Shown piece after piece: positions 2,304 to 22,154 of a DNA stretch of 64,000 bases. Origin of the DNA: a bacterium (lineage in GTDB: Bacteria > Vulcanimicrobiota > Vulcanimicrobiia > Vulcanimicrobiales > Vulcanimicrobiaceae). The notes under the pieces were generated by a model that saw nothing but the letters and a program-made list of their open reading frames with translations, was not told the origin of the DNA and did not search any database. The DNA is taken from contig JAJZED010000014.1 in the NCBI GenBank assembly GCA_021805775.1, positions 1-64,000 of the forward strand. Reading direction: 5' to 3'. Positions within the stretch are counted from its first letter, which is position 1, and each line of letters begins with the position of its first letter. Both the position numbers and the translations under genes were made by a program.

Positions 2304-2356
2304 AAAGAGCTGCTCGCAGCGGTGCAGGGTTACCGTCGGGCGAATAGGGGCTTGCA

Positions 2357-3511: not shown

Positions 3512-3571
3512 GGGAAAATCTACAGGCTTAAACTTACACCCCCGCCAAGCGACAAAGGGTGAATCCAAGAA

Positions 3572-4312: not shown

Positions 4313-4421
4313 CGTTCAACAGGTAAAACCAATACGTCCCCCGGAACCGCCCGCTGAGCGGGCGAAGTCCGGGACCGAGTTCGCCACCGAAGACTCGCCT
4401 GGCGCACACAGGGAAATCTAA

Positions 4422-4971
4422 ATGAGCAAGAAGCGCGCGAAAAAATCATCAACCAAGAAGCCAGATTCTGAGGAGAAACCCTGGTCCGAGGGTAAATGGA
4501 AAATCGTATTCGGCAATCTAGCTAGGGGCCGCGGCAATCCCGGAAAGGTTGAGTCCATCTTCGACGTTGTCGGCGAAAAACTGCCGAAAGAGGCGCTCGG
4601 CTACGTCGAGGATCTTGTCGTGCGTCGGTTCAATTCTCGGGAAGGCGTGTATTTCGCGCACGATTCAGTCGGCTGCGCTCGCTAAGCGGGGCGCGGGCGC
4701 GGTCGCGTCTTCATCCGGCTCCGAAGTCATTTCAAAGCCCATCCAGACGAGTTGCACTTCTTCTCGTTCTACCTGATCAAGAGTAAAAAGCACGAGCGCG
4801 AAATCGAGACCGTCCTCATTCGGGTCGCCAGCCACCTACTCATGTTCAATCGGCGAAAGAAGCGAGATGATATCGAACCGGGCGACGTCCGCGAGCGGCA
4901 CCTCGTATTTCGAACGTCAGCGGAAGAAGGGCAGGCGAAGGACGGTGCGACGCAAGCGGCGGACAAGATAG
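4422..4971 (+). pseudogene. Disrupted GIY-YIG-like nuclease
   Basis: One frame runs from ATG 4422, meets a single TAA at 4683-4685 and then continues. A second shift near 4890 (after PGDVR) moves the sequence into another frame ending at 4971 (TSYFERQRKKG). The rebuilt product reads EGVY, then *AGRG, then RLRSHF and EIETVLIR, which are the spacing and residues of GIY-YIG folds (GVY, YxG, Arg, Glu). The stop falls where the YIG tyrosine is expected. The N-terminus is Lys-rich (KKRAKKSSTKK). Neither piece would be functional alone. The family call is tentative, the disruption is clear. Confidence 0.5.
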
Positions 4972-5063
4972 AGTGCACGAGGGTGATCGCCATCGATCTC
5001 GCATTTCAATTTGCCCCCTGGGCTGCGACCCCGCTTGAAGTGATCGCTGCGGTTGCCGCCTAG

Positions 5064-5396
5064 CAATCCTTCCGGTACCGCAACAAAAGGGCGCCACCGG
5101 ACCGGTGGCACCGTGATTTCGGCATACGCCATGTCGTCACCGAGACATATTTTCGGTTACCGCTGGTTGTTGCAGCGTCGTGGGGCCGATTTGCTCCCCG
5201 GGACGACGATGAGCCCCGCCTGCGCCGCCACAGGCACTTCGAACTGCGGGAGCGATTAGCGCGCTATCTACGAAAACAAATCGCTCGGCCTGCCGCTACA
5301 GCGAAGCCGAGCCTGGGCGTGTACGACTACTTGCGCTACACACGGGCGGAGCGAAGTCTCACGACGGCGAAGGGCAAGATATTGCGGTTCGATTAA
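5064..5396 (+). pseudogene. Stop-free remnant without a start codon, unrecognised
   Basis: From 5064 to the TAA at 5394-5396 one frame stays open for 110 codons. It ends in a protein-like tail (LRERLARYLRKQIAR, YDYLRYTRAERSLTTAKGK). It contains no ATG and no credible alternative start with a ribosome site. It is probably the tail of a gene whose front has been lost. The gene at 5407 follows 10 nt after its stop. I do not recognise the family. Confidence 0.3.
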
Positions 5397-5406
5397 GGAG
5401 GGTACC

Positions 5407-7440
5407 TTGGCAGAGAGCGTGGTGACGACGCCGGGCTTCGTTAGGGAACTCAAGAGTTTCGCTCAGCAGGAGCGGGACCTTATTTTGAAGGCTGTCAATA
5501 TGCTCATGATAAACCCCGACGGCGGCGGTCTGAATCCTGAATATGTCAAGGCGAATCGGAACTACATGACGTTTCGCGCGACGCAGGGAATTCGCATCGT
5601 CGGCTGTCGTACGAAAGGATGCCTGCAACTAGTCGGCGTCGATCGGCATGATAACGCCTATAAGCGGGTGGCGGCGGGTTCTTTTGCTACCCCGAGTAAC
5701 ATTCCAGAGATGGCCGAGCGCCTCTCGGCCGACGCGCTCGATCCGAAGAGGCGCGCCATGCCGACGAGTGGCCCACTAGTCCATTTCTCCGATAACGAGC
5801 TCATTGCTAAATTCGCGATTCCGGAAGACTGGGTTGGAGCGGTGCGGTCGGTGAACGATGCAGAGAGCCTCTGGAGCATCGGGATCGCCAATGTGCTCCC
5901 GGAGGATAACTTCTTCGCGCTTCTTACGATCTTTCCGGAAGTCCCAGTGATCTCGACTGGCGACAAGCCGATTTTTCGGTTTCCAGACGAGGCGCTCGCA
6001 AAAGCGTTCGCTGACGGCGAGATCAAGGAATTACAATTCAACCTTCCGGCTGCATCATGGTCGATTATCGAGAGCACTCGTCGCGCGCCAATTCTGGTAA
6101 AAGGTGGGCCAGGTTCAGGGAAAACTCTCGTCGCGCTCTATCGCGCACTGCACGTCCTGGAAGACCGGGGCCTAGGCCTAGAGGTTGCTCCACGCGTGTT
6201 GTATGTAACGTACACAAATCAGTTGCGCGACGACGCGCGCAATAAGGTCGAACGTCTACGTGGGAAAATACCGGAAAACCTAGCGATCGAAACTTACGAT
6301 CACTTCGCCGTGAGGTATGGCGCTAAAAAGGATCATCGCATTGAGTATGATGTTGCTAATCTCCTTCCATACGTGTTGACGGCCGCAAAAGGAACATCTA
6401 TGGATACAAGCTTCGCGCAGTCGGAAATTGTAAGTATTATAGAAGCGCGCAACGTGCGCACTTTGGAAGAATATCAGAAACTACGTCGACACGGTCGCGG
6501 CGCAGCGCTTGGGCCAAAAGGGCGCGCTACCATTTGGGGAATTTACGAGCGTTACCGAAATGAGCTTGAGAAAAATCGATTAGCTGATATCGGAATCGCT
6601 CGCATGGCCGCGTGCGATTCCACCAAAAATGTTAGCACCACTGAACAATTTGATTTCGTCATTGTCGACGAAGTGCAAGACCTACAAGCATCCGCTCTAA
6701 AGATGATGGTGCACCTTACGCGCGGTAAAGGTACCGCAAAGCATTTGATGCTCGTTGGCGACGCCGGCCAAACAATCCATAGCCGCGGGTTCAGTTGGGC
6801 GGCCGTCGACCTTAGTATAGGCGGCGGCAACGTCCATTCGCTAGGACAGAGCGAACGAAGCACTCAGGAGATCCTCGACTTTGCGCGCGCGCTCTTTGCC
6901 GCGCCAGCCGGCGCGCTCTCTCAGGATATCGAGCAGCTCACCTCTTCGAAGACTGGTGCGCGCCCTCGTATTATAGACGATCTGCCCGCCGAAGACGCGC
7001 TCTATATTCGACTTGTCAAAGATATTCAGGATCGGCTCGACGAGGGCGTTTCGTACACAAAAATCGCAGTGATAGCGCACTCAAAGAGCAAGCTTGCCGC
7101 TATCGCGAAAGCGTTTGAAGGCGCCGGTATTCCTACCGTACAACAAAATCAGGACAACTTTTACACGAAGACTGCCGTGAAACTGATAACCGCTCATAGC
7201 GCCAAAGGGCTCGAGTTTTCCGAAGTCTATATTCCCGACGCAAACGACGGGGTCTACCCGTATTGGACAAACAAGGAGATTGTTGACGCCGACGATCATG
7301 CCGAGAAAAATGTTCAGGACTGTAAGCTCCTATACGTCGCCGCGACCCGAGCGGCCGATCGATTAACCATTGCGTACGTTATTAAGCCGAGCCCAATCCT
7401 TCAGAATGCTCGGAAATTTGCCGAGAGTATCCATTTCTAA
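5407..7440 (+). CDS. RelE/ParE-like domain fused to an SF1 (UvrD-type) helicase
   Basis: The TTG start at 5407 is set by an AAGGAGGG ribosome site at 5396-5403. Residues 1-95 look like a RelE/YoeB-type mRNA interferase fold (FVRELKSFAQQERDLI, YMTFRATQGIRIVGC, VDRHDNAYKR). From about residue 205 there is a complete SF1 motor: KGGPGSGKTLVALY (Walker A), VIVDEVQDL (Walker B), LVGDAGQTI (III), TAHSAKGLEFSEVYIP (V) and LLYVAATRAADRL (VI). Toxin-helicase fusions of this sort occur in defence islands; the mode of action is not established. It ends 54 nt before the tRNA-derived repeat at 7495 and seems complete. Confidence 0.8.
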   Translation: MAESVVTTPGFVRELKSFAQQERDLILKAVNMLMINPDGGGLNPEYVKANRNYMTFRATQGIRIVGCRTKGCLQLVGVDRHDNAYKRVAAGSFATPSNIPEMAERLSADALDPKRRAMPTSGPLVHFSDNELIAKFAIPEDWVGAVRSVNDAESLWSIGIANVLPEDNFFALLTIFPEVPVISTGDKPIFRFPDEALAKAFADGEIKELQFNLPAASWSIIESTRRAPILVKGGPGSGKTLVALYRALHVLEDRGLGLEVAPRVLYVTYTNQLRDDARNKVERLRGKIPENLAIETYDHFAVRYGAKKDHRIEYDVANLLPYVLTAAKGTSMDTSFAQSEIVSIIEARNVRTLEEYQKLRRHGRGAALGPKGRATIWGIYERYRNELEKNRLADIGIARMAACDSTKNVSTTEQFDFVIVDEVQDLQASALKMMVHLTRGKGTAKHLMLVGDAGQTIHSRGFSWAAVDLSIGGGNVHSLGQSERSTQEILDFARALFAAPAGALSQDIEQLTSSKTGARPRIIDDLPAEDALYIRLVKDIQDRLDEGVSYTKIAVIAHSKSKLAAIAKAFEGAGIPTVQQNQDNFYTKTAVKLITAHSAKGLEFSEVYIPDANDGVYPYWTNKEIVDADDHAEKNVQDCKLLYVAATRAADRLTIAYVIKPSPILQNARKFAESIHF

Positions 7441-7494
7441 CTGTAAATCACGCGCCGATAAGTGGTGTCTCCGCAAAGAAGACCGCTCGAGCGC

Positions 7495-7554
7495 TCCTCG
7501 TGATGCTTATTCGTAACCAGCAGGTCAGCGGTTCGAGTCCGCTCGTCGGCTCCA
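7495..7554 (+). repeat. tRNA-Thr(CGT) 3' fragment, attachment-site scar copy 1
   Basis: This 60-bp segment carries the anticodon region (TTCGTAA loop, CGT anticodon), the variable region, the T arm (GGTTCGAGTCC) and the acceptor 3' strand CGTCGGC-TCCA of a tRNA-Thr. No matching 5' half (expected GCCGACG and a D arm) lies upstream, so it is not a functional tRNA gene. It matches 30553-30612 at 58 of 60 positions. The anticodon stem is mispaired here (CTTAT/ACCAG), consistent with decay of an att duplication. Confidence 0.8.
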
Positions 7555-7913
7555 CGAATTGCCTCACGAATTGGGTTTTTTATTTCCCGACTGCTGCAAG
7601 GCGCATGGTGCTGGCACAGAAGTGGCGCAAGCAAGGACGTCAGTCCGCGCGCTCGACCGCCTCTATAGTTCCAAAGGCCTAGGCTCGAAAAGTTCCGACG
7701 ATTAAAGCCGCGGTTTTGAGCCCCGCCGGAAAATCTTACTACTTATCGGCCTTCGATAGCCTAAGGTTCGAAGCCGCCATAAGCCGTCAGTTCGTTTTAG
7801 AAGACGGGGGAATCTCGGTTTGGATTATGCAATAGTTGACGACGCAGTAAAGCGGTCGTCTCTTGAACCAAATCCGTCCGTCTTCTGTCGAAGTGCTGCC
7901 TAGGTGGGTATCA
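7555..7913 (+). other. Non-coding leader region of the drm operon
   Basis: I see no gene in these 359 bp. There is an imperfect inverted repeat around 7749-7775 (CTTCGA ... TCGAAG) and a short direct repeat (CACGAATTG-type) just after the tRNA scar. The drm operon promoter should lie here, but no convincing -35/-10 pair stands out. Confidence 0.3.
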
Positions 7914-10900
7914 ATGGGTGTAGAAAAACCATCGCCGTTAGAGGACCCGAATCCGGACTATCGGGACGAGATCTGTGGCTATTTTGCTCGTCAACTGCTC
8001 GGGCCGTTTGATGGCGCAAACGAGGTGTTGCCAAACGCTCCTCGCACCCGTTACCTTCTCGGCATTCTTTACCCGCAAGAGTCAGCTCCGACAGATTTCT
8101 TATCTGAGGAAGAGATTCAGGATCTATCGGCCGATAGCGGTCTGGGAGCATCTGAACTCGGCGAGGGGCCAACGGACGAAGCAGTTGTCGTAACGAATGA
8201 TTGGCTACCTAGCTCGTTAGGCATCAGTTTCTACTGCACAGCGCGCCGGATACGATGCAAAATCTGGGGCGCCGCCTACGAAGCACAGCGGATCGGAAAA
8301 CGGCAGTGCTGGCGTCGCATCCCGATCTTTGAACGCGAGGCTCCGTCCGAACACATTATTGCCGCTCCGCCTCCGGGAACCACGAGCACACCACCGATTA
8401 AAGCGCTCGGCGATCGCGCCGAGCTTCGAACCGTATGGCGTCCGATTGGCGATGGCTTTCTCGTAACGGTGACTCTAATCAACGCGAGTTCTTTCCCTAA
8501 GTTGAAGAAGTCGTCTTCGAAGAAGGAGCAGCGCGCCCACGATGAGGCTTGCCTTCACCAAATAGGGTTTCGCTGCGAGCCAATAGAGGGGCATATTCCC
8601 GAGTATAAGACGGTAGCGCATGTCGTCCGCGATGACGAAGATGATGAACTGCGCCTTATGTATCGCGATGCGCGCGTCTTCGCCGTTGGACACGGATGTT
8701 CTGTTTCCTGGCCAGTTGGTTCTGCCTTGCACGCCGAACACGTTGAAACGGAACACATTCCTTCATATGAGGTAAGACCGCTCACATACGACCTCGAGGA
8801 CATTGACGGCAGGAAGAAAGACATCGCCGCGATCCTCCACCTGCCCACGCTCATCACATTTGACGTCAACGAGCTAGCGAGACGCCTTAACACGTTTGTC
8901 GACGTGTACGCGGATTGGATAGATCGCATAGAAGGCGTAGATATCCCGGCGATCCACGAAGACGCACGATCGCGAATCATTGGGCGACTCCGAGAAGTGA
9001 CCGCGCGCCTGCGGCGCGGAATAAATTTAATCGAAACGCGCGACGAGGTCTTGCAAGCGTTTAGGCTAGCAAACCGAGCGATGCTTATGCAACGTTATCG
9101 CACGAGAGAGATCATTCAAGATAAGGTTCACGATCGAACAAGAAGACTTCCGAAACAGATTGACTACGTCAGCTACAACTACTCGTGGAGACCATTTCAG
9201 CTTGCGTTTCAACTGCTGACCCTGGAGTCGGTCACCGATGAAAGCGCTCCGGATCGTGATGTAGTGGATTTGATCTGGTTTCCAACTGGAGGAGGCAAGA
9301 CGGAAGCCTACCTTGCAGTTGCCGCCTATACAATTTTCTCCAGAAGACTGCGGGACCGTGAGAAGGGTGCAGGCACTGCTGTTGTAACCCGGTACACGCT
9401 GACGTTGCTGACTGCACAACAGTTTCAGCGTGCCGCAACCATGATATGCGCTTGCGAGCAAATCAGGCTGAACAATCAGCCGGAGTTGGGAGACGCTCCC
9501 ATTTCGATCGGCTTATGGATTGGTGATGAACATACGCCAAACACGACCGTTAAGGCGCACGACAAGTTTCAAGAAGTGCTGGATTCTGATGAGCCATCGA
9601 ACCCATTTAATCTGCACCAGTGCCCCTGGTGCGGAACCGCAATAATCCCGACCAAGAAAGTTAATGATTTCCGAGCGTATGGCATTCGAAGCACTGAAGA
9701 TACATTCGGCTTCTTCTGTGCAAATGATACGTGTGAGTATACCGGTGGCCTCCCCGTTCAGGTCATAGACGACGAGCTGTATCGAAACCCGCCCAGCTTT
9801 CTTCTTGGTACCGTGGACAAATTTGCAATGTTGGCGTGGCATGACAGGCCTGCTGCCTTCTTTGGTTCTGAGGTATTCAAGCCGCCATCCTTGATTATTC
9901 AGGATGAATTGCACCTTTTGTCCGGCCCGCTTGGGACAACCGTTGGCCTATACGAAGCAGCTATTGAAGCGCTGATTGAACTGCGGGGGGCGCTTCCGAA
10001 GGTAATCGCTTCCACCGCAACCATTCGAAGAGCCGGAGACCAGGTAACGGGCTTGTTTGGCCGGCGCCGCACGAGCGTCTTCCCGGCGCCTGGAATTGAT
10101 GCGGGCGACTCGTTTTTTGCTCGTGTCGATACAGAAAGCCCAGGACGTCGCTACGTGGGGGTAATGCCACAAAGTCACTCGACCCAGACCAGCCTCGTAA
10201 ATACATCCGCGGCGCTGCTGCAAGTCGTGCTGGAAATGGAGTTCCTCGACATTGAAGCGAAGGATGCGTACTGGACGCTCGTAATGTATCACAATAGCCT
10301 GCGTGAGCTCGGTCGAACCGTCACGCTCGCGAAGGATGACATCCCGCTCCGCCTCGAGGCTTGGACTTCATCAAGTCCGGAGCGCTGCCGTGACATCAAC
10401 GAAGACAATGTGATTGAGCTTCGTAGTCGTATCGGTAGCGATCAGCTTACAGCGCGCCTGCAGCAGCTGAAGGCAACGATCGGAGACGAGGATTGCCTAT
10501 CGATTGTCGCGTGTACAAATATTTTTTCGGTCGGCGTCGATGTCTCCCGGCTTGGCGTTATGTTAATGAACGGGCAACCAAAATCGACTTCCGAGTACAT
10601 CCAGGCCACGAGCCGAGTGGGTCGCGGAAAATACCCCGGCCTTGTCGTTGCACTGTACGGGCCAACGCGTCCACGCGACAGGTCTCATTACGAGCAGTTC
10701 TTGTCCTACCACTCAGCTTTGTATAAGCATGTGGAGCCGACGAGCGTTACGCCGTTTTCTCCACCATCGCGCGAACGGGCGCTGCATGCTGGTTACGTAA
10801 TACTTATGCGCCACTGGGGTGAGCTAGCTCGAGACGATCAAGCGGGCAGTTTTCGTGCTGGGGACTCGAAGTCGATAGAAGCGCGAGATATGCTTCTCGC

Positions 10901-11159
10901 TCACATCATGCGCGCGGACCCGGAAGAGTATGAAGCATCTAAGAAGCATTTAGACGAACTCATGACGGAGTGGGATGGCCTTGCAGTCGCAGCCATCAAT
11001 AACCGACGCTATTTATACTACAAATCGAGCGGCAAGAGTCAGGCCAACCTCCTCAAAGTGTTTGGCCGCCGAGGAGAGGGCTGGCCAACACTTACCAGTA
11101 TGAGGAGTGTCGATGTACCGTGTCGGGTGTGGGTACTCGGTGAGAGCGACCATCAATGA
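7914..11159 (+). CDS. drmA: DrmA-like SF2 helicase (DISARM core)
   Basis: This protein of about 1081 aa has the layout of DrmA. The N-terminus reads YRDEICGYFARQLLGPFDG. A helicase Walker A, LIWFPTGGGKTEAYL, lies near residue 455. A Cys4-type zinc site (CPWCG with CANDTCEY) sits inside the motor. DELHLLSGPLGTTVGLYE replaces a DEAH box, and NIFSVGVDVSRLGVM with ATSRVGRGK gives motifs V and VI. DrmA with DrmB forms the DNA-translocating core of DISARM, which restricts incoming phage DNA. I prefer ATG 7914, which is preceded by AGGTGG; an in-frame TTG at 7863 would add 17 residues. Its stop overlaps drmB by 4 nt. Confidence 0.87.
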   Translation: MGVEKPSPLEDPNPDYRDEICGYFARQLLGPFDGANEVLPNAPRTRYLLGILYPQESAPTDFLSEEEIQDLSADSGLGASELGEGPTDEAVVVTNDWLPSSLGISFYCTARRIRCKIWGAAYEAQRIGKRQCWRRIPIFEREAPSEHIIAAPPPGTTSTPPIKALGDRAELRTVWRPIGDGFLVTVTLINASSFPKLKKSSSKKEQRAHDEACLHQIGFRCEPIEGHIPEYKTVAHVVRDDEDDELRLMYRDARVFAVGHGCSVSWPVGSALHAEHVETEHIPSYEVRPLTYDLEDIDGRKKDIAAILHLPTLITFDVNELARRLNTFVDVYADWIDRIEGVDIPAIHEDARSRIIGRLREVTARLRRGINLIETRDEVLQAFRLANRAMLMQRYRTREIIQDKVHDRTRRLPKQIDYVSYNYSWRPFQLAFQLLTLESVTDESAPDRDVVDLIWFPTGGGKTEAYLAVAAYTIFSRRLRDREKGAGTAVVTRYTLTLLTAQQFQRAATMICACEQIRLNNQPELGDAPISIGLWIGDEHTPNTTVKAHDKFQEVLDSDEPSNPFNLHQCPWCGTAIIPTKKVNDFRAYGIRSTEDTFGFFCANDTCEYTGGLPVQVIDDELYRNPPSFLLGTVDKFAMLAWHDRPAAFFGSEVFKPPSLIIQDELHLLSGPLGTTVGLYEAAIEALIELRGALPKVIASTATIRRAGDQVTGLFGRRRTSVFPAPGIDAGDSFFARVDTESPGRRYVGVMPQSHSTQTSLVNTSAALLQVVLEMEFLDIEAKDAYWTLVMYHNSLRELGRTVTLAKDDIPLRLEAWTSSSPERCRDINEDNVIELRSRIGSDQLTARLQQLKATIGDEDCLSIVACTNIFSVGVDVSRLGVMLMNGQPKSTSEYIQATSRVGRGKYPGLVVALYGPTRPRDRSHYEQFLSYHSALYKHVEPTSVTPFSPPSRERALHAGYVILMRHWGELARDDQAGSFRAGDSKSIEARDMLLAHIMRADPEEYEASKKHLDELMTEWDGLAVAAINNRRYLYYKSSGKSQANLLKVFGRRGEGWPTLTSMRSVDVPCRVWVLGESDHQ

Positions 11160-12994
11160 GCCGCGCAAATAGAGAGATCAGGATTTCTCAAACGATCGTC
11201 CCGTTCGGCGTCGGCGCGATTTACACAATATTCGGAGAGTCGTTTGTCGCCTGTGACACGGCGCTGTGGCCTAAGGGAATGAACATGCGGAGGGTTCGCG
11301 CGGAAGCACTGCGGCGGTCCCTGGGCGTAGAGGAGCTGCTATCGCCTCTGTCGGCCGACGTAAAAAAAGCCGGGCTACCTTACATGAGGTTTCCCGAGTG
11401 GATGTTTTGCCAGAATAAACGATGTAAGCGTCTCATCAAATGGAATCGGGACGAAGAGAAAATCGGCGAGCCAGCGACGTGCTTCTCTTGTGGGTCAAAC
11501 AAGCCGCTTGCGCCAATGCGTTTCATTTTGGTTTGCAAAAATGGACACTTCGCTGACGTGCCGTGGCACCGGTGGGCCCATGTCGGCAAAGCATTTTGTG
11601 ATAAGCCGAAGGATTTGAAATATGAAGGTGTTAGGGACGCTGGCTCAGGTCTCGCCTCCCTTATTGTTCGCTGTAATACGTGCAAAGCTAGCCGCTCGCT
11701 GAGCGGGATCACATTGACTGATAGTATGCGTGCGCTTGGAGTCGTGTGTACTGGCAAGCATCCGTGGCAGGGTGCTGCGCGCGTCGAAGCGTGTGCTGAG
11801 CCGATGCGCGTTGTCCAACGCGGTGCTAGTAACGTCTACTTTGCCGTGCTGCGGTCTGCCCTAGACATCCCACAGGCTAACGGCGCCATCGAGGACGACG
11901 AAAATGTCGCAGTTCGAAATCATCCCGATTTCGAGCCGCTCCTTCGACACTGGAAAAAGACGGGACATAGGGGCGCTATGGTCGATCCATGCCTCGATTC
12001 AATTGAGACGGACACTGGCATATCGCGACCTCAGATTGTCGCCATCGTGCAACGTGAGCTTACGGAAGCACCCGCGCAAGGCGAATCTGACATCGCGGTG
12101 ACTGAATGGCTGGCGTTGAGAGAAGAGCATGACGAGGAGGGTTATAAATCCCCGCTAATCACGAGGAGAACACCGCTCATGTGGCCGGGAGCCGGTGATA
12201 TTGTACAGCAGATCGCGGATCGAATTAAAGACATAATGCTCGTGACGCGCCTAAAGGAGGCGCGGGCGCTTGTCGGATTCTCTCGCCTGGAACCTGACGC
12301 GCGCATGCTTCGAACCGACTTGACGTCGGCGGGCTCCGCGCGATTGGTGCAATGGGTTCCGACGATCGAAGTATTTGGTGAGGGAGTATTTCTCGAATTC
12401 AATGAGTCGCTGGTGAGAGAGTGGGAACAGCGAAAGCCTGTTATCGCTCGCAGTGAAAAAATGATCGATCGCCTCGAAGGCAGTACCCTCGCAAGCGCGA
12501 TCTTGAAGCAAAGACTACCCTGGCAGCATATCGATGCCCGCTTCATCATGCTCCATAGCTTCGCCCACTTGATTATGCGCGAGCTATGCTATGAAACGGG
12601 ATATTCAAGCGCTGCGCTCTCCGAGCGGGTTTATGCTCGCCCTAGCAGCGATCCCGTTCCGCAGGCCGGCATCTTGATTTATACTGCTGCCGGTGATTCC
12701 GAAGGAACTCTCGGCGGTCTCGTACGGCAAGGTCAAGCTCCTCGGTTAATGAGCTCGATACTCAAAGCGTTGGAGTCAGCGATTTGGTGTTCGGCCGATC
12801 CGCTGTGTCGTGAAAGCGATGGTCAAGGATATGACCGCACAAATCTGGCCGCTTGCCATGCATGTTCCCTGTTGCCCGAAACGAGCTGCATATCGGGAAA
12901 CATGTTGCTCGATAGGTCGCTTGTTGTCGGACCACAAGGAGAGGAAGATCTAGGCTATTTCCCCGATCCAACTTGTTCATTAGGTGACGTATGA
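11156..12994 (+). CDS. drmB: DrmB-like DUF1998 protein (DISARM core)
   Basis: The 612-aa product opens with ISQTIVPFGVGAIYTI, the typical DrmB start. A zinc-ribbon-like region follows near residues 83-140 (CQNKRCKRLI, CFSCGSN, LVCKNGHFADVPWHRW). A C-terminal DUF1998 domain contains LHSFAHLIMRELCYETGYSS, GDSEGTLGGLV and a Cys cluster (NLAACHACSLLPETSC). DrmB binds DrmA, and together they engage unmethylated or 5'-end-bearing phage DNA in studied DISARM. ATGA overlaps join it to drmA upstream and to the next gene, so it sits inside one transcription unit. No damage is visible. Confidence 0.87.
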   Translation: MSRANREIRISQTIVPFGVGAIYTIFGESFVACDTALWPKGMNMRRVRAEALRRSLGVEELLSPLSADVKKAGLPYMRFPEWMFCQNKRCKRLIKWNRDEEKIGEPATCFSCGSNKPLAPMRFILVCKNGHFADVPWHRWAHVGKAFCDKPKDLKYEGVRDAGSGLASLIVRCNTCKASRSLSGITLTDSMRALGVVCTGKHPWQGAARVEACAEPMRVVQRGASNVYFAVLRSALDIPQANGAIEDDENVAVRNHPDFEPLLRHWKKTGHRGAMVDPCLDSIETDTGISRPQIVAIVQRELTEAPAQGESDIAVTEWLALREEHDEEGYKSPLITRRTPLMWPGAGDIVQQIADRIKDIMLVTRLKEARALVGFSRLEPDARMLRTDLTSAGSARLVQWVPTIEVFGEGVFLEFNESLVREWEQRKPVIARSEKMIDRLEGSTLASAILKQRLPWQHIDARFIMLHSFAHLIMRELCYETGYSSAALSERVYARPSSDPVPQAGILIYTAAGDSEGTLGGLVRQGQAPRLMSSILKALESAIWCSADPLCRESDGQGYDRTNLAACHACSLLPETSCISGNMLLDRSLVVGPQGEEDLGYFPDPTCSLGDV

Positions 12995-14148
12995 AGCTGC
13001 CAGCCTATAAGCTTCTATCGAAGGAGCAGGACCGCGTGAACAATCTCCCTCTCGATGGGTCTTATATTGTGGCTGGTCCCCCGGGAACCGGGAAAACCGT
13101 GGTAGCACTTTACCGGACGTCTCTACTCCAAAAGGAGCGGCAACAAGTACAACTCTTAACATATTCGCGCGTCCTTACGAATTATTTAGGAGCAGGAGTT
13201 GCAGATTTGAACCTCGCGGCCGGCGCCAGCACGTATCACCGCTGGGTTGACAACGAGTGGAAGGCTTTGAATCGTCGTAGAACGGATGGCGCTAAGCAGT
13301 GGAAAGTGCCAAATACTGGCGACTGGTACTCGTACGATTGGAACGCGATTCTGGATGCCGTCAACGAATTTCCTCCGGAGAAAGGAGGTCTTCCGTATCT
13401 AATTATCGACGAAGCGCAAGATTTTCCACGGGACTTTTTCAAGCTGGCCCGCTTCATTGCAAAAAATCTGACAGTATTCGCTGACGAAAATCAAACACTC
13501 ACCGATGAGAACTCTACAATAGCAGAGATACGCTCCGCGGCTGCGATTACGGCAGAGACGTTCTTTCTGACGAGGAACTACAGGAATACGCGGCAGATTG
13601 CAAGATTAGCGGGCCATTTCCACTCAGGCCTTCAAACAGGTATTCCGGAGCTTCCCACGCGTTTTGGTAAGCCGATCGTTCTCCAGGAAATGACGCCGGC
13701 TCAAGGCATCGATAGAATCTTGCGTTACCATGCTCTAAGGCCTTCGGCCGAGATCGGCGTTTTTTTGCCGACGATTGCAAAGGTGAAGCATTATGTTGCC
13801 GAGTTTTCGGAAAAGATAAAGAAAAAAGGCGCGATCCAGTACTACTATCGCGACAAGAAGGGCCCCCAGGACACCCTCAACTTTGAAAAGCCTGCAATTC
13901 GCATTCTCACATACAAGAGCGCAAAGGGGCTCGATTTCGACGCCGTATTTATACCCGAATTGGAGCGGTATGCTGGTGATGAGAATGGTGGCACGACTAG
14001 AATGCTGTTTTATGTGCTTCTTTCCCGCGCACGTGAGGAGTTGTTCCTCTTTTTTCACCGGAAGAGGTCAGGGCTGGTGTCCCTTATTGAGCAGTACATG
14101 GCTGAGGATGCGCCTATCAATGAACGGGAGCAAAGTGAAGTACGATGA
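12991..14148 (+). CDS. Minimal SF1 (UvrD/Rep-like) helicase in the drm operon
   Basis: This 385-aa protein has a full but compact SF1A motor without the usual large 1B/2B insertions: VAGPPGTGKTVVALY (Walker A, near residue 28), LLTYSRVL (Ia), LIIDEAQDFP (Walker B), VFADENQTL (III), LTRNYRNT (IV), LTYKSAKGLDFDAVFIP (V) and FYVLLSRAREEL (VI). ATGA overlaps couple it to drmB and to the next gene. It takes the position held by drmC or other accessory genes in classic DISARM. Its role (loading, remodelling or signalling) is unknown. The SF1 assignment is firm; a link to DrmAB is inferred from coupling. Confidence 0.8.
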   Translation: MKLPAYKLLSKEQDRVNNLPLDGSYIVAGPPGTGKTVVALYRTSLLQKERQQVQLLTYSRVLTNYLGAGVADLNLAAGASTYHRWVDNEWKALNRRRTDGAKQWKVPNTGDWYSYDWNAILDAVNEFPPEKGGLPYLIIDEAQDFPRDFFKLARFIAKNLTVFADENQTLTDENSTIAEIRSAAAITAETFFLTRNYRNTRQIARLAGHFHSGLQTGIPELPTRFGKPIVLQEMTPAQGIDRILRYHALRPSAEIGVFLPTIAKVKHYVAEFSEKIKKKGAIQYYYRDKKGPQDTLNFEKPAIRILTYKSAKGLDFDAVFIPELERYAGDENGGTTRMLFYVLLSRAREELFLFFHRKRSGLVSLIEQYMAEDAPINEREQSEVR

Positions 14149-15791
14149 AACGACCTTCTGGACGAGAGATGACCTTGATTGCGGCGGCGGATGAGCAACC
14201 GAAAAGGCGATCCTCGAAAAAACAACCCGGTGCACCGACGCCTCAATTGGAAACTGGCAGCGCTGCAGCGCCGACCCCTTTGACGCCGAGGTTGTACCTG
14301 TTAACGAACAACTTCAATATGCTGGACATCTTGGCATCCGGCTATGCGAAGCCTCGATCGGCGTACGGGAAGTACTACGAGGATTTACTTAGGTTCGCAG
14401 ACGGCTGGGTTCCTCTGGTGCCTGCTCCCGTTGACGGCGCATTGCAAAACGCCGTCTCTACCGAGCAGCTTTCTTTTCCGATATTGATTGAAACAAATGA
14501 TCTCAGCATCCCGTCTACCGCCCCTGAACCGTTTCACGGCGTGCACTTGATAAGGGGAGCCGTGCCGGTTTCTTTGATGAAGACCTTGCACTTTCGAAAC
14601 GACCAGGAGTGCATTAGATTTTATTCTCGCGAGTATGAGGGAATCGACTTCTCGCTTATCTCTGGTCAGGTGTCACCAGAACTCTTTTCTGAAGCGGTAG
14701 CATCCGGCAACCACGTGCTTCAAGCCTTGCAAAGAATGGCAGACGCTGAAATGCCGGAGAGCGGCGTGTACGGGGAGTACGATCGGAAAGCCGGAGCGCT
14801 TGCAGCCTTACTTGCGTTTCGCCACTATACAAGAGACGAAATCGCTACCGCATTGACGCTTTATAATATCGAAAAAACTCCAATTGAACGGCGAGATGCA
14901 ATGACGGCCCTTGGGTTTCCCGCAGTGGATCTTCTAACGTTGAAGGTGGATGAAAATGCCAGCCTCGATGACCTGCTCTTTGCCATTACGCTGCGCAGGT
15001 TCGAGGCGGTAGATCGTGCGGTTTCATGGGATCCGATAGCAATCCTTTCGCATATTAGACGAGATTTTGATGAGCGTCGGCCCGCCGCCTCGAATGCAGA
15101 ATCGCTGGAGTCAGTATTCACCTACATTCATCGGGTCCTCACTCTGGACGCCGAGTTCCGACCTTTCAAGCGCGACTCAGGACACGCGGCTGGGAAAGCT
15201 CTGTTGTTGGCACTTCTCCGCCCGAACATTCGCGAGTTTCTTAACTGGCCTCGTTCTGAAACTGGCTCTGATGATATAACAGATGCTATTGCTGCGACGT
15301 TGATCGGCACGCTCTCGGGGCTTCAACTGTTGCCTCTGTCGGTGCGTCCTCCGGAGGTGGCGCAGTTTTTATCGATGTGGCAGGCGGCTGTTTTGAACAC
15401 TGGCATCAAGGCAGCGCTGCCGATTGCGGTACCGGCGGCGGGTACGGTGGTAGATGACATCATAAAGGCGTCTTGGCAGGTAAGGTCACCGGCCACGGTG
15501 AGCTATCACAAGCCTGCGGATTCTGTCTCAGGTCAGATCACAATAGAAGACCTTGTGAAAAAAGGTTGGACCGAGTGCATCATCACTGTCATTGATGCGG
15601 CGCCAGTTGGAAGCGTAGAGATATCCACCGCGACCGAGAAAGGTCGTGTGCGCATTCAATTGCGCGGAACGGCCATTATGCGACATGAGGTTGACCGTGA
15701 AGCGACGGCACGTCGCATGTCCGCGCCTGAAGGGGGCGTCGCGGCTCTAAAGGGTACGAAGGCGAAATCAAAACAACATCGACGGCCTTGA
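14145..15791 (+). CDS. Unrecognised 548-aa protein of the drm operon
   Basis: I do not recognise this protein. It begins with a basic, low-complexity tail (DEQPKRRSSKKQPG), followed by TPRLYLLTNNFNMLDILASG, AYGKYYEDLLRFADGWVPLV and several helical stretches, and it ends in another Lys/Arg-rich tail. The early segment faintly recalls the start of DarT-type ADP-ribosyltransferases (a strand, then a helix and an xxGxxKP turn), but no catalytic residues can be assigned. No Walker, nuclease or membrane motifs are seen. It overlaps the SF1 helicase gene by 4 nt and is followed 24 nt later by the nuclease-helicase, so it is an integral member of the cassette. Confidence 0.7.
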   Translation: MKRPSGREMTLIAAADEQPKRRSSKKQPGAPTPQLETGSAAAPTPLTPRLYLLTNNFNMLDILASGYAKPRSAYGKYYEDLLRFADGWVPLVPAPVDGALQNAVSTEQLSFPILIETNDLSIPSTAPEPFHGVHLIRGAVPVSLMKTLHFRNDQECIRFYSREYEGIDFSLISGQVSPELFSEAVASGNHVLQALQRMADAEMPESGVYGEYDRKAGALAALLAFRHYTRDEIATALTLYNIEKTPIERRDAMTALGFPAVDLLTLKVDENASLDDLLFAITLRRFEAVDRAVSWDPIAILSHIRRDFDERRPAASNAESLESVFTYIHRVLTLDAEFRPFKRDSGHAAGKALLLALLRPNIREFLNWPRSETGSDDITDAIAATLIGTLSGLQLLPLSVRPPEVAQFLSMWQAAVLNTGIKAALPIAVPAAGTVVDDIIKASWQVRSPATVSYHKPADSVSGQITIEDLVKKGWTECIITVIDAAPVGSVEISTATEKGRVRIQLRGTAIMRHEVDREATARRMSAPEGGVAALKGTKAKSKQHRRP

Positions 15792-15815
15792 CGGGGAAAG
15801 GTCGACAGGTTTGCG

Positions 15816-17789
15816 ATGATAAAGTTGGTGGGTGATCTTGAAGGCAGTGAGTATGAGGCCGCGTGTGAGCTTAGAGAGTCTATAGCGCGAGCATGGCCGG
15901 ACATTGCAGACGATCGAAATAAATTGGATGAGATCATTATTGTAATAGGTGGCCAGATCTTTGGAGGAGCCGTTCAAGATCTAGATCTCGCGGTTCTTCT
16001 ATCTCTATCGCGTAGCAGAATCGTCAAATCCTTAACACGGGTTCGGGCGGATGATACGCCATATGAGTTTGGCGTCCAGCACGCCTGTATCTTAATTGAG
16101 GTGAAAGATCACTCGAAAGCCACGCAAAGCGTTCGGTTTCAAGGCGGGAGCGTCATGGTGCGGTATGGCGAGAAATGGCACAACGCCACGAAGCAGTGCG
16201 CTGCGCAAGTGCGTGTGCTAAAGGCCCTAATCGAAAATATCGGCGCGATTCCGCCGTTTGTCCACGGCCTTGTCTGGCTCCGAAATCTTGAAGAGGACGA
16301 GCATCCGGGCTTTCTTACGAATAATCTAGCTGGACGCGAGCTTGACTGGCAGAGTCTGCTGGATCAAGCGGAGGCGGTTCACCCGGGACAATTCGCACGA
16401 TATGCAAACAACGGCTCCGCAGGGCAATTTCGTCATATTTTCGATGTGCTAGCGCGAACAAAAGAGGTTACGCCACTCGATCGCCGGCGCATGGACGAAG
16501 TGATTCGATCAGGCATTCCCCAGAGCCTTGTGGATGTCGTCGGTAGAAAGATGCTCGTGCTTCGTGGTCACGCAGGCTCCGGAAAAACGGCGACCCTGTT
16601 GCGGTTGGCGTACAGCTTGCATCTCGATCAGAATGCAAAAGTTCTGATTCTAACGTATAACCGTGCTCTAGTTGCTGATTTGCGAAGACAGCTCGACTTG
16701 TTGGGAGTCCCCGCAGCAGTTCAATCAAGAGGCATTCACGTCGAAACCGTCCTCACGTTCTTTACAAAGTGGCTAAAAAATGACATCAGCGGTGTGGACT
16801 ACGAGCAGCCAGGAGGTCATTTTGACAATATGCTATATTCGAAAGCGGTGGACGAGTGCCTCAAGTACGTCTTAAATGGCGCCATTACGGGTCGAGACAT
16901 CGCGGAAGCAAAAGATGAAGAGCATACGGGACAGGAACTCTCTTGGACCTATGTACTCGTGGACGAGGGCCAAGACTCTCCAAAGAATGAGCGCGATTTG
17001 CTGCGGGGACTCTACGATTGCCGCTCCATTATTGTGGCCGACGGCATTGACCAACTGGTGCGTCAGAATCCATTGTGCGACTGGACGGAACGCTTGGACC
17101 CCTCGGTTAAGGCCCACATAGAGCAGCTTCCCGAGTGCAGGCGAATGCAGAGCGGACTGGTAGATTTCTGTAATGCCTTCGCTTCAAGGCTTGGTCTTCA
17201 TGGATCGAAACTGAAGCCTAGTTCCCAGGTCGCCGGGGGCCGGATAATCGTCATTGAAGGCAATTATTTCGCTGACAGATCACTGCACGACGAGCTACGG
17301 TCCGGAAATGCCAAAGCTGGCAATAAGGGTCTCGACATGCTTTTCTGCGTTCCTCCATCGTGGGTTGAAAGGGGGCGCGAAGGCGAAAAAGATTCCACGG
17401 CGGCCAAGCGTCTAAGGCTGTGGAACGAGAAAATTTGGAATGGTGTCTCCGACCTTGAGAGAATTCAATTTCCGTTGGATGTTGAGCAACTACGAATCGT
17501 CCAGTACGACTCGTCTCGTGGACTGGAAGGGTGGGTCGTAGTCAACTTTGCGTTCGACGACTTTTTCGCATATAAGTATGAAACTTGGGAGCCTCTAGCC
17601 GTTGATGGCGTGGCGGTGGACAAGGAGCAAGAACGGCATAAATTTGCAGCAGCCTGGTCGATGATTCCGTTGACGCGAGCAATGGAGACACTGGTAATTA
17701 GCGTCGGTAAGCACGACTCACCGGTCAAATCCGCATTACGAGCAACCCAATCGGTTTTGCCGGAGATCGTCGAATGGCGTACCCTGTAG
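15816..17789 (+). CDS. NERD-like nuclease fused to SF1 helicase
   Basis: The N-terminal 170 residues resemble a NERD/PD-(D/E)xK nuclease: IFGGAVQDLDLAVLL supplies acidic residues and CILIEVKDHSKAT supplies the ExK element. From about residue 245 there is an SF1 motor: LRGHAGSGKTATLLRL (Walker A), VLVDEGQDSP (Walker B), IIVADGIDQLV (III), ECRRM (IV), YDSSRGLEGWVVVNF (V) and PLTRAMETLVIS (VI). A GGGGAAAGG ribosome site precedes ATG 15816. It is the last gene of the coupled drmA-drmB cassette and gives it a plausible DNA-degrading activity. The IS element begins 63 bp after its stop, leaving the gene whole. Confidence 0.8.
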   Translation: MIKLVGDLEGSEYEAACELRESIARAWPDIADDRNKLDEIIIVIGGQIFGGAVQDLDLAVLLSLSRSRIVKSLTRVRADDTPYEFGVQHACILIEVKDHSKATQSVRFQGGSVMVRYGEKWHNATKQCAAQVRVLKALIENIGAIPPFVHGLVWLRNLEEDEHPGFLTNNLAGRELDWQSLLDQAEAVHPGQFARYANNGSAGQFRHIFDVLARTKEVTPLDRRRMDEVIRSGIPQSLVDVVGRKMLVLRGHAGSGKTATLLRLAYSLHLDQNAKVLILTYNRALVADLRRQLDLLGVPAAVQSRGIHVETVLTFFTKWLKNDISGVDYEQPGGHFDNMLYSKAVDECLKYVLNGAITGRDIAEAKDEEHTGQELSWTYVLVDEGQDSPKNERDLLRGLYDCRSIIVADGIDQLVRQNPLCDWTERLDPSVKAHIEQLPECRRMQSGLVDFCNAFASRLGLHGSKLKPSSQVAGGRIIVIEGNYFADRSLHDELRSGNAKAGNKGLDMLFCVPPSWVERGREGEKDSTAAKRLRLWNEKIWNGVSDLERIQFPLDVEQLRIVQYDSSRGLEGWVVVNFAFDDFFAYKYETWEPLAVDGVAVDKEQERHKFAAAWSMIPLTRAMETLVISVGKHDSPVKSALRATQSVLPEIVEWRTL

Positions 17790-17919
17790 TTGGAGGCGCA
17801 ATTAGCGACCCTGACACCACGCCAGTTTGTGACACGCGTGCAAAACAGCTAGTGGCCTGACCTCAGTTTCGTGGACACCATGATAGGCCTCAAGGGGAGG
17901 CCGGAAAGAATGGTGCCCC

Positions 17920-18360
17920 ATGGCAGACCAACGGCGGAAATTTCCGCGTGAGTTGAAGATCGAGGCGGTACGCCGCGTTATCGACAGTGGTGAGACCGCG
18001 ACGGAGATTGCGCGGTCGATCGGTATAGATCCGAGCCTTTTGTATGGGTGGATGCGCCGGCTCAAGGCTGAGGATAAAGAAGCGTTTCGTGGCAATGGGA
18101 AACTTACCGCGCAAGATGAGGAGATTCGTCGCCTTCGGCGACAGCTTGCCGATGTAAGTGAGGAACGGGATATTTTAAAAAAACGGCAATTGGGTTCGCG
18201 AAGCAATCGCGGTGAGATATGCCTGTATTCAAGAACATATCGGCGTGTGGCGGGTGCGCTTGATGTGCCGCGCACTGAATGTTTCGCCGTCCGGATTTTA
18301 TGCATGGCAGCAGCGGCTGCCGAGCGCGCGAACGACGCGAGACGGCGTGCTTCGCTTTGA
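17920..18360 (+). CDS. IS3-family transposase OrfA (helix-turn-helix)
   Basis: The first about 88 residues are a normal OrfA: KFPRELKIEAVRRVIDSGET with a helix-turn-helix (ATEIARSIGIDPSLLYGWMR) and a leucine-zipper-like helix (EEIRRLRRQLADVSEERDIL). A run of seven A (18177-18183, zero-frame TTA AAA AAA C) is the expected slippery site for a -1 shift into the OrfB frame. Beyond it the zero frame runs on to 18360 without family resemblance. The main product is probably the OrfAB fusion. Confidence 0.82.
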   Translation: MADQRRKFPRELKIEAVRRVIDSGETATEIARSIGIDPSLLYGWMRRLKAEDKEAFRGNGKLTAQDEEIRRLRRQLADVSEERDILKKRQLGSRSNRGEICLYSRTYRRVAGALDVPRTECFAVRILCMAAAAAERANDARRRASL

Positions 18361-19078
18361 GGTCGTTACTCTCCACCGCAAGAGCCGCTCTCGATATGGC
18401 AGTCGACCGATCGTACGCGATCTCCGCGATGGCGGCAAACGCGTTTCCCGCCGTCGCGTCGCCAAGCTGATGCGGGAAGCCGGCATTCGCGGCAAAACGC
18501 CTCGTGCATTCAAGGTGACCACCGATTCCAAACACGGCAAGCCGCTCGCCGGAAATCTGCTCGAACGACACTTCGCTCCAGCGGAAATCGAAGCGCCGGA
18601 TCGCGTGTGGACCAGCGACATTACCTACCTGCGTACGCGCGAGGGCTGGCTCTATCTCGCCGTGGTCCTCGATCTTTTCTCGCGGAAGATCGTTGGCTGG
18701 TCGATGAGTCATCGACTTGAGTCGCGACTCGTGCTCGACGCGTTACAAATGGCGGCAGATCGTCGCGCCGTTGAGCAGACGCTGCTCGTTCATTCCGATT
18801 GCGGGGTGCAGTATGCCAGCGATGCGGTTCAGCGCTTTTACGACCGAAACGGGATGCTCTGCAGAATGAGCCGCAAGGGCAACTGTTGGGACAACGCGGT
18901 GACCGAGAGCTTCTTCGCGACGCTCAAGCGCGAACTCGACGATCCGACCTTCGAGTCCCGGGAATCGGCGAGGGCGATCGTTTTCGGCTACATCGAGATC
19001 TGGTACAATCGGCAACATCGGCACTCGAAGCCCCGATACGTCAGCCCCGAGCAGTTCGAAAAGACTCAGGCTGCGTAA
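18212..19078 (+). CDS. IS3-family transposase OrfB (DDE integrase domain)
   Basis: OrfB carries HTH_21-like RLMCRALNVSPSGFYAW followed by the rve integrase core. The DDE residues are visible as VWTSDITYL (D), LVHSDCGVQY (D) and NAVTESFFATLK (E). In the -1 frame reached at 18177-18183 it is continuous with OrfA, so translation likely starts upstream by frameshifting; ATG 18212 is only the first Met inside the frame. No stop or deletion is seen, so the element may be active. Confidence 0.87.
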   Translation: MRYACIQEHIGVWRVRLMCRALNVSPSGFYAWQQRLPSARTTRDGVLRFEVVTLHRKSRSRYGSRPIVRDLRDGGKRVSRRRVAKLMREAGIRGKTPRAFKVTTDSKHGKPLAGNLLERHFAPAEIEAPDRVWTSDITYLRTREGWLYLAVVLDLFSRKIVGWSMSHRLESRLVLDALQMAADRRAVEQTLLVHSDCGVQYASDAVQRFYDRNGMLCRMSRKGNCWDNAVTESFFATLKRELDDPTFESRESARAIVFGYIEIWYNRQHRHSKPRYVSPEQFEKTQAA

Positions 19079-19179: not shown

Positions 19180-19285
19180 ACCTACCTTCGGGAAGCGGTA
19201 TCCGCAGGCCTAGTGGCGAACGCCCGTTCGGCCACAGAATATTGGGATGATGTGGGGATAATCCGTGAATAGGAGCGAAGAATCT

Positions 19286-20392
19286 GTGAACGTGAGCGGA
19301 GAGCCCGGCCTCTACGTGGCTGACCTCTTTGCGGGAGCAGGCGGTCTGACCGAGGGCTTCCGCCATGCTGGCTACACCGCCGTTGCCGCTGTCGAGTTCG
19401 ACCGATGGGCGGCCCGGACGTACGCCGCAAACTTCGGCGACCACATATTCGCGTGCCCCATCGAAGAGGTCACCGTTTCGCGTTGCGATGGTGCTCTTGC
19501 GTGGACCGGCAAGGACGAATATGGCAACGACCTCTCGTTCGAAACGCCCGAAATCGATGTGCTGGTTGGCGGAGTTCCTTGCCAGGGTTTCAGTCCACTT
19601 GGGCGCATGAACGATTGGGATTTCAACGACCCGCGTAACAAACTCTGGAAGCACTACATGCGCGTGCTCGATGCGGTCACGCCGAAGGTGTTCGTTATAG
19701 AAAATGTGCCGGAGATTCTGAAGTCTGAAGAATTCGAACGGTTGAAACGGCATTTGCGCCGATTGGATCATGGATACGAGCTCGCATACGGCGTGCTCAA
19801 CGCGTCGTTCTATGGCGTTCCCCAAAGCCGCAGGCGCGCCACCATAATCGGGAGTAGAATCGGGCGCCCGACGCTTCCACCGGAGACGCTTGAACGCCGC
19901 ACGGTGCGCGATGCCATAGGTGATCTTCCTTCGAAGCCTGATGGAAAAAATTGGCATTTAGCACGCAATCCTCTACCAATGTCGTTAGAGCGTTACAAGT
20001 GCATCCCTGAAGGTGGAAATCGCTTTGACCTGATGCGAATGCGTCCCGACATTACTCCGACGTGCTGGTTGAAAAAGAAAACCGGCAGCACCGACGTGTT
20101 CGGTCGCATGTGGTGGGATGAACCCGCTCCGACGATTCGCACTGAGTTCTTCAAACCGGAGAAGGGGCGCTATCTGCATCCGAAAGCGCATAGGCCCATC
20201 ACTATTCGGGAGGCTGCACGTCTCCAAACATTTTCCGACGAGTTCACCTTTGTGGGATCACACGTTCAAGTAGCGAAGCAAATCGGCAACGCAGTGCCGA
20301 TCAAGCTCGCAGAGGTGATTGCAGCGCACCTTCGCGCAACGCTACTTGCAGAGCGACCGAAGAAGAGAGAACGCGTAGCCGTAGGGGGATGA
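19286..20392 (+). CDS. C5-cytosine DNA methyltransferase (Druantia II DruM / R-M type)
   Basis: All main C5-methylase motifs are present: DLFAGAGGLTEGF (I, AdoMet), GVPCQGFSPLG (IV, catalytic Cys), FVIENVPEIL (VI), QSRRRATIIG (VIII), TIREAARLQTF (IX) and KQIGNAVP (X). It would protect host DNA by 5-methylcytosine. GTG 19286 is preferred, with AGGAG 10 nt upstream; GTG 19265 would add seven residues. It overlaps vsr by 4 nt and heads a cassette that also contains an NgoMIV-like nuclease remnant and a DUF1998 helicase. It may serve a type II R-M unit, Druantia type II (which includes a cytosine methylase), or both. Confidence 0.88.
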   Translation: MNVSGEPGLYVADLFAGAGGLTEGFRHAGYTAVAAVEFDRWAARTYAANFGDHIFACPIEEVTVSRCDGALAWTGKDEYGNDLSFETPEIDVLVGGVPCQGFSPLGRMNDWDFNDPRNKLWKHYMRVLDAVTPKVFVIENVPEILKSEEFERLKRHLRRLDHGYELAYGVLNASFYGVPQSRRRATIIGSRIGRPTLPPETLERRTVRDAIGDLPSKPDGKNWHLARNPLPMSLERYKCIPEGGNRFDLMRMRPDITPTCWLKKKTGSTDVFGRMWWDEPAPTIRTEFFKPEKGRYLHPKAHRPITIREAARLQTFSDEFTFVGSHVQVAKQIGNAVPIKLAEVIAAHLRATLLAERPKKRERVAVGG

Positions 20393-20802
20393 CTCCTCGC
20401 AAGAAGCCGCTTTCCAAAAGCGAGCAGATGTCGCGTGTGAAGTCTCGCGACACTGCGCCTGAAATGCTCGTGCGGCAATTTTTATCCAAGTGCGGCGTTC
20501 GCTATCGGTTGCATCGCAAGGATCTCCCGGGCCGTCCTGACCTCTACATTCCGCGTCTTCACCTGGCGTTGTTCGTAAACGGGTGCTTTTGGCACGGCCA
20601 CGGGTGTCGTCGGGCAGCTCGATCCAAGACGAACGTAGATTTCTGGACTCAGAAGATTGCCCGAAACAAGGCTCGGGATCGGGCCACCGGTGAGGCGCTG
20701 CGGGCAATGGATATTGAGACGTTGACGTTATGGACTTGCGAACTGGATGCGTTTCCAAAAGCATGTCGCGACATCATGCGGCGATACGAACGCGAATCGT
20801 GA
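20389..20802 (+). CDS. vsr: Very short patch repair endonuclease
   Basis: The 137-aa protein has the Vsr family pattern: SRVKSRDTAPEMLVRQFL at the start, LPGRPDLYIP with the catalytic Asp, and LFVNGCFWHGHGC. Vsr nicks next to the T of T:G mismatches produced by deamination of 5-methylcytosine, so it normally accompanies a C5-methylase. The ATGA overlap with the methylase gene fits that pairing. Family length is about 130-155 aa, so it is complete. The usual HGCFWHGH is NGCFWHGH here, a mild variation. Confidence 0.88.
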   Translation: MTPRKKPLSKSEQMSRVKSRDTAPEMLVRQFLSKCGVRYRLHRKDLPGRPDLYIPRLHLALFVNGCFWHGHGCRRAARSKTNVDFWTQKIARNKARDRATGEALRAMDIETLTLWTCELDAFPKACRDIMRRYERES

Positions 20803-20874
20803 TGACCGCGAAACCCGTTGGATGAGCCGCTGATCAGGCGGCTCTGTTCAGTCGATTTTCGGCGAGCGTATAGT

Positions 20875-21995: not shown

Positions 21996-22154
21996 GAGAG
22001 ACGGCCCATTTTTGGCCTTCCAGGAATTACCGGCCCTGACTCCGCCGAACCCTCGACCTGTCTGCCGTACGGCTGGCTCCAGCGGGGTTAAGTCCTGCCT
22101 TAAGTATGGGTGTACGATGTTTAGCGATGGGCACGGGCCCAGCAAGGCGATGAG

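Follow-up and report, generated by a model that had tools for sequence, protein, structure and literature searches.

The locus considered here raises the question of whether a compact row of genes that begins with drmA and drmB is an ordinary DISARM system in altered form or a system of its own. It is found in a 64,000-nucleotide stretch of bacterial DNA (contig JAJZED010000014.1, family Vulcanimicrobiaceae), which is called the window throughout. The first-pass annotation had described it as an unnamed DrmAB variant with two SF1 helicases and an orphan protein, and with no DrmC, DrmD, DrmE or methylase in the operon. This description is strongly upheld, both by profile searches and by the recurrence of its core in at least 40 other loci.

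Organization of the cassette

The features of the cassette and its surroundings are listed in Table 1. All five cassette reading frames are intact, with no interruption. The junctions drmA/drmB, drmB/HEL and HEL/ORPH are overlaps of 4 nt, and ORPH is separated from the fifth gene, P5, by a gap of 24 nt; a check of the open reading frames reproduced the coordinates, overlaps and gap exactly as they had been annotated. Terminator-like sites in the region 7400-18000 are not above chance (10 found, 11.7 expected). No methylase is encoded by the five genes.

Table 1. Features of the cassette and its neighbourhood, in window positions.
Feature	Position	Strand	Description and basis
DrmA-like YprA-family SF2 helicase	7863..11159	+	TTG start, 1098 aa; profile, solved structure, tree
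DrmB-like protein (DUF1998/MZB)	11156..12994	+	612 aa; PADLOC, NCBIfam
HEL, minimal SF1 (UvrD/HelD-like) helicase	12991..14148	+	385 aa; Pfam UvrD_C, AAA_19
ORPH (orphan)	14145..15791	+	548 aa; ART/DarT-like fold ~50-186, helical 188-420, disordered tail
P5 (gene 5), predicted PD-(D/E)xK/NERD-like nuclease and SF1 helicase	15816..17789	+	657 aa; motif
IS3-type transposase pair	17920-19078		between P5 and the Druantia locus
Druantia type II-like locus	19265-30005		DruM C5-methylase, Vsr endonuclease, DruF-like protein, unmatched 313-aa protein in the DruG position, DruE (1805 aa)
Cytosine-5 methyltransferase, DruM-like	19265..20392	+	of the neighbouring Druantia II; PADLOC DruM E=6e-104
DruE	24588-30005		of the neighbouring Druantia II locus
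RelE-UvrD gene	5407-7440		677-aa SF1 (UvrD) helicase, N-terminus RelE-like by eye
SNF2 fragment	2357-3511		384-aa ORF, truncated SNF2-like N-terminal half joined to a DUF3825 domain
Two-gene pair	488-2181	-	AbiEii/AbiEi toxin-antitoxin-like by eye

The RelE-UvrD gene stands alone upstream of drmA, outside the operon, and resembles ArmD of ARMADA type II. DrmD is absent from the operon. The SNF2 fragment, 4 kb upstream, aligns with DrmD over 39 residues; since the Walker A region alone aligns, this fragment was rejected as a remnant of DrmD. The whole ORF is possibly a broken helicase of the DrmD/ArmA type.

DrmA and DrmB

The identities proposed earlier for the first two genes hold, and by profile and structure comparison they can be regarded as certain. 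DrmA is matched by the PADLOC profile with E=2e-213 and by the solved Serratia DrmA structure 7s9v with E=7.5e-160, while its score with the NCBIfam model DISARM_DrmAS, 882.1 bits, falls narrowly below the cut-off of 950. DrmB is matched by PADLOC with E=5e-73 and passes the cut-off of NCBIfam DrmB_fam (437.6 bits against 240).

In the alignment to 7s9v, residue 9 of the query corresponds to chain residue 113. The protein of the window is without the N-terminal section of about 110 residues, an EVE-like domain, that is found in class 1 DrmA. At the position of the trigger loop a shorter acidic segment is kept.

A quickly built tree of 81 DrmA sequences, with few class 1 references, one class 2 reference and a root that is not fixed, places the window and all 66 HEL-associated sequences on one side of a branch with SH-aLRT support of 96. 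The other side holds the class 1 and class 2 loci, those associated with UvrD/NERD, and further DrmAB loci. This supports the view that the HEL-associated DrmA proteins are a separate lineage.

Recurrence of the four-gene core

HEL, the signature gene of the cassette, has the Walker A and DEAQD motifs and matches the Pfam families UvrD/UvrD_C and AAA_19. The best four HEL matches on plasmids all adjoin DrmB (Deinococcus, Streptomyces and two Photobacterium), and the remaining matches, with lower identities of mostly 21-26%, are generic SF1 helicases. ORPH has a single match among 72,556 plasmids, in Deinococcus gobiensis, where it is located directly downstream of DrmA-DrmB-HEL. The gene order of this plasmid locus is NERD-helicase, DrmA, DrmB, HEL and ORPH, with equally tight junctions, and the identities with the window are 43% for DrmA, 35% for DrmB and 40% for HEL. 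Since the Deinococcus gobiensis locus was found by way of ORPH, it represents an independent route to the DrmA-DrmB-HEL-ORPH order.

A scan of GTDB genomes with an alignment of five HEL sequences gave at least 80 loci; as HEL was the seed of this survey, the figures for HEL loci are counts and not frequencies or shares of a population. DrmA and DrmB lie directly upstream of HEL in 62 of the 80 genome loci among the matches listed. An iterated ORPH profile, started from the two founding orphans, yielded 40 ORPH proteins, each of them directly 3' of HEL. The complete DrmA-DrmB-HEL-ORPH core is present in at least 41 loci, with the window, plasmid and viral loci included, and in at least ten phyla. 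These include Pseudomonadota, Actinomycetota, Bacteroidota, Planctomycetota, Chlorobiota, Verrucomicrobiota, Lentisphaerota, Myxococcota and Deinococcota, together with a Parcubacteria MAG and the phylum of the window, in which ORPH was found in the window's own genome only.

The recurrence of the four-gene order in at least 40 other loci indicates that the association of DrmAB with HEL and ORPH is not a matter of chance. The first-pass annotation had allowed that the extra genes might never be met beside drmAB elsewhere, and for HEL and ORPH the opposite is the case. The five-gene order for which it had proposed a neighbourhood survey is seen again only in its four-gene part; P5 as the fifth gene occurs in the window only, in one of the 41 core loci among the matches listed. 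DrmC has no match at the cassette, be it that of the window or that of a HEL locus among the matches listed, and DrmE, searched with one reference sequence, has none in the HEL loci among the matches listed.

Two other kinds of HEL locus were observed. The first, 27 loci among the matches listed, has DrmA but no ORPH; all are from Actinomycetota and nearly all from Streptomyces. A large gene is often located directly upstream of DrmA-DrmB-HEL in these Streptomyces loci, and in one of them it codes for a sigma-factor-like protein of 1273 aa that matches the MzaA profile. In the second kind, eight loci, a HEL-like helicase is followed by an ORPH-like or similar protein with no DrmAB nearby. One of these ORPH-like proteins ends in a 2OG-Fe(II) oxygenase (AlkB-type) domain. 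The occurrence of distant ORPH-like proteins after HEL-like helicases in places lacking DrmAB suggests that HEL and ORPH may form a separate module.

Methylases and self-protection

The C5-methyltransferase (C5-MTase) nearest to the cassette in the window is DruM, 1.5 kb downstream and beyond the IS element. A C5-MTase is located outside the operon, within about 10 kb, in 26 of the 41 core loci among the matches listed, a raw count that is uncorrected for the background of defence islands. It was not seen within this distance in the other 15. Leaving the window aside, 11 core loci have it no more than 0.8 kb away with no intervening ORF, in most cases on the other strand. The neighbouring enzymes belong to several subfamilies, and the same profiles found none in the 27 Streptomyces-type HEL loci among the matches listed.

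It had been proposed that self-protection does not use an in-operon methylase. The operon indeed contains none; however, the wider conclusion that no methylase is used at all cannot be drawn, because a C5-MTase is found near 26 of the 41 core loci. Methylase-based self-protection in trans is possible. One could go further and see here a counterpart of DISARM class 2, in which restriction depends on methylation and the cytosine-5 methylase comes from an adjacent, separately transcribed gene. The 26 loci, and the 11 in which nothing stands between the methylase and the core, would agree with such an arrangement. However, the 15 loci with no C5-MTase and the mixture of subfamilies speak against it, and C5-MTases are common in defence islands. 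We consider this reading unlikely. The short acidic segment of DrmA, for its part, fits a discrimination by DNA structure, as was reported for DISARM (PMC9142583).

A second DrmA-DrmB pair is present in the genome of the window (contig 25, positions 1-14000). It is of class 1 type, with a DrmMI-like methylase upstream.

Fold of the ORPH protein

ORPH has no match in Pfam, PADLOC or NCBIfam, and in this respect its earlier designation as an unknown protein stands; its fold, however, could be recognized as similar to ADP-ribosyltransferases. The AlphaFold model, which is based on an alignment of 35 sequences, reaches a pLDDT of about 90 in most of the stretches 50-186 and 275-420. The top seven Foldseek matches in the PDB are DarT DNA ADP-ribosyltransferases and the tRNA 2'-phosphotransferase Tpt1, with probabilities of 0.90-1.00, E-values of 0.01-0.13 and low TM-scores. 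Weaker matches include ADP-ribosylglycohydrolases (ARH), which the helical domain matches with a Foldseek probability of 0.3-0.5. In one ORPH homologue (L029) the Pfam family 2CompART is matched over residues 23-136 with E=4.6e-5, just under the gathering score. Comparison of profiles gave a score of 21.7 for the ORPH N-terminus with DarT (unrelated controls 10-13) and of 21.8 for the helical part with ARH (controls 10-16); the register is plausible in both cases, and neither score is significant alone. A PDB sequence search with the ORPH profile gave no significant match, and the viral structure library gave weak matches only.

The catalysis of Thermus DarT requires R51 and E160 (PMC9967889). 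In the sequence-based alignment of the 35 ORPH proteins no conserved Arg or Glu is apparent at the equivalent positions. Only Glu116 is frequent (26/35), and by eye it is located on a different strand. Overall, the N-terminus of ORPH is best regarded as an ART/DarT-like fold in which catalysis has probably been lost; the likeness of the helical domain to ARH is a lead.

These features allow two readings in which ORPH is at the centre. In one, an ORPH derived from ART and ARH proteins would couple NAD- or ADP-ribose-related sensing, or the marking of DNA, to a DISARM-type helicase. The effectors would be the pair of SF1 helicases together with a NERD nuclease that can be swapped, and the two-gene HEL-ORPH module would also be paired with non-DISARM partners, including AlkB-like enzymes. 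We regard this as a doubtful but conceivable interpretation. In the other, the system would act by abortive infection: ORPH would be an active ADP-ribosyltransferase of the DarT kind which, once triggered by DrmAB, would modify DNA or some other target and halt growth. The ART/DarT-like fold, the 2CompART match in the homologue and the ARH-like helical domain are in line with such a toxin, and an annotated DarT is found beside another DrmAB-NERD operon, directly after it in Azospirillum. However, no His, Arg or Glu is evidently kept at the sites of DarT R51 and E160, the frequent Glu116 is, by eye, not on the strand expected, and the genes conserved next to ORPH include no dedicated antitoxin, which makes a toxic role rather improbable.

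The fifth gene and the defence island

A NERD-type nuclease-SF1 helicase stands first in 26 and last in 7 of the 41 core loci among the matches listed, and is missing from 7. The D...ExK pattern of this usual enzyme is kept in 39/39. P5 has SF1 Pfam matches and, ahead of the SF1 core, a PD-(D/E)xK-like motif (D55/D57 ... E95-x-K97) that is kept in all aligned homologues. It has no NERD Pfam match and no significant similarity to the Deinococcus NERD-helicase; the architecture is alike. A PDB search with the P5 profile gave weak SF1 and ATPase matches only, and a model made from three sequences (pLDDT 46) was too poor for use. From its motif P5 would be a nuclease-helicase that degrades DNA.

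P5 is found in four genomes of the window's phylum. In six loci with readable context the gene immediately before its homologues encodes a DruE-type YprA helicase (Alisedimentitalea, where the order is DruF-DruE-P5, Shinella, Sinorhizobium, two viral contigs and one relative of the window's genome). The P5 of the window itself comes after the split YprA pair DrmA and DrmB with HEL and ORPH, in a slot which is used by the NERD-helicase in seven other loci among the matches listed. Since the P5 family otherwise follows DruE-type helicases, the best reading appears to be a partner exchange between YprA-family systems, DISARM-like and Druantia-like. Alternatively, P5 may be a remnant of the adjacent Druantia II locus. 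The place of its homologues after DruE-type helicases also led to the rejection of P5 as the system's conserved nuclease. The first-pass annotation had taken P5 for an integral member of the cassette, but it does not belong to the core, and the relatives mostly carry the unrelated NERD-helicase. Three operons, two of them on contigs of the viral collection, each combine a P5 nuclease-helicase with a DruE-type YprA helicase and a pair of unmatched genes; they are possibly another undescribed YprA-based system.

The neighbourhood of the cassette is a defence island with Druantia II. That the locus is an ordinary DISARM with its accessory genes lost, on which three separate defence genes were stacked by chance, is very improbable: an island that also holds the RelE-UvrD gene and an IS element would favour such stacking, and it is possible for P5 with its usual place after DruE-type helicases, but for HEL and ORPH it is refuted by their recurrent order after DrmAB, with overlaps, in at least 40 other loci of ten phyla, and the DrmA sequences of the HEL-ORPH loci group together.

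Proposed mechanism

The reading that we favour, and consider probable, is that of a distinct DISARM-like anti-phage system with a DrmA-DrmB-HEL-ORPH core, which an exchangeable NERD-type nuclease-SF1 helicase would assist. The analysis directly shows which genes are present, that their order is conserved, to which families and folds they belong and how the DrmA proteins group in the tree; from this we infer a defence function, the formation of a complex, the degradation of DNA and a role for ORPH. In DISARM, DrmAB is autoinhibited by a trigger loop, binds single-stranded DNA with a 5' overhang, is activated by 5'-overhang DNA and requires ATP hydrolysis, while DrmC is dispensable (PMC9142583). 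In the cassette, the DrmAB complex would be restrained by the acidic loop, load on phage DNA that is exposed as a single strand or a 5' overhang, and then translocate. HEL and the NERD-helicase could be recruited to unwind and cut the phage DNA in place of the PLD nuclease DrmC. ORPH, probably without catalysis, might link HEL either with DrmAB or with a ligand (DNA or a nucleotide), in the manner of an adaptor or a sensor. Self-protection would result from the DNA structure that DrmAB requires, possibly with the help of a cytosine-5 methylase next door. The nuclease is not universal, and in the seven core loci without a NERD-helicase cutting would need another enzyme.

The survey shows the DrmAB core in a second, widespread setting, in which DrmC, DrmD and DrmE are missing and the operon has no methylase. 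The compact four- and five-gene operons make the nuclease of DISARM and its sparing of host DNA directly testable. The ORPH family is defined here, with an unexpected ADP-ribosyltransferase-like fold within a DISARM-like system, and an exchange of partners between the YprA helicases of DISARM-like and Druantia-like systems is indicated.

Comparison with known systems

The combination of HEL-ORPH with DrmAB has no entry in PADLOC, NCBIfam or Pfam. The open-access papers searched name no subtype with DrmA-DrmB-HEL-ORPH; the earlier concern that the set might already be catalogued as a DISARM subtype found no support in these sources. The cassette looks like a so far undescribed, widespread relative of DISARM. 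Bell et al. (2025, PMC12458937) described ARMADA, BRIGADE and TALON, and stated that the DISARM-like clade holds many uncharacterized classes.

Unlike Druantia type II, the cassette has no DruE in its operon; the DruE of the window belongs to the neighbouring locus. ARMADA type II (PMC12458937) and the cassette share a YprA-family helicase and a UvrD/GajB-like helicase. However, the YprA of ARMADA is a fused protein of the Druantia branch and comes with a SNF2 helicase and a PglX methylase; the cassette contains none of the three. TALON (PMC12458937) also combines a YprA-family helicase with a NERD nuclease, but its YprA is ARMADA-like and is accompanied by TPR-CSD and TBP genes, whereas the cassette is without these and has DrmA and DrmB as separate proteins. 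Two other candidates were set aside. The McrBC-associated DISARM-like cassette (PMC11090510) consists of SNF2, PglX and YprA, according to its figure key and a follow-up paper, and is not the present set; the ShdA-associated DISARM-like operons (PMC10270631) are different and occur in Pseudomonas only.

Other DrmAB operons, in Azospirillum, Rhizobium and Rhodococcus, are similar to the cassette in that SF1 helicases, NERD helicases or both accompany DrmAB and the operon encodes no methylase. They differ in the SF1 helicase, no ORPH was found in them and they fall outside the HEL group of the tree. Operons of this kind, four of which are uncatalogued, have a UvrD helicase ahead of DrmAB and a NERD-helicase after it, or else the NERD protein on the upstream side.

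DISARM class 2 (drmE, drmMII, drmA, drmB, drmC) shares DrmA and DrmB with the cassette loci, and a C5-methylase is often near these loci, although it is outside the operon and usually on the other strand, and no homologue of DrmE is present. With DISARM class 1 (drmD, drmMI, drmA, drmB, drmC) the cassette has no DrmC, DrmD or DrmMI in common, and its DrmA, which does not have the N-terminal EVE-like region of class 1, belongs to a separate group of the tree. In both systems, however, homologous DrmA and DrmB are encoded in the same order with overlapping genes, and in the cassette HEL and ORPH take the place of DrmC.
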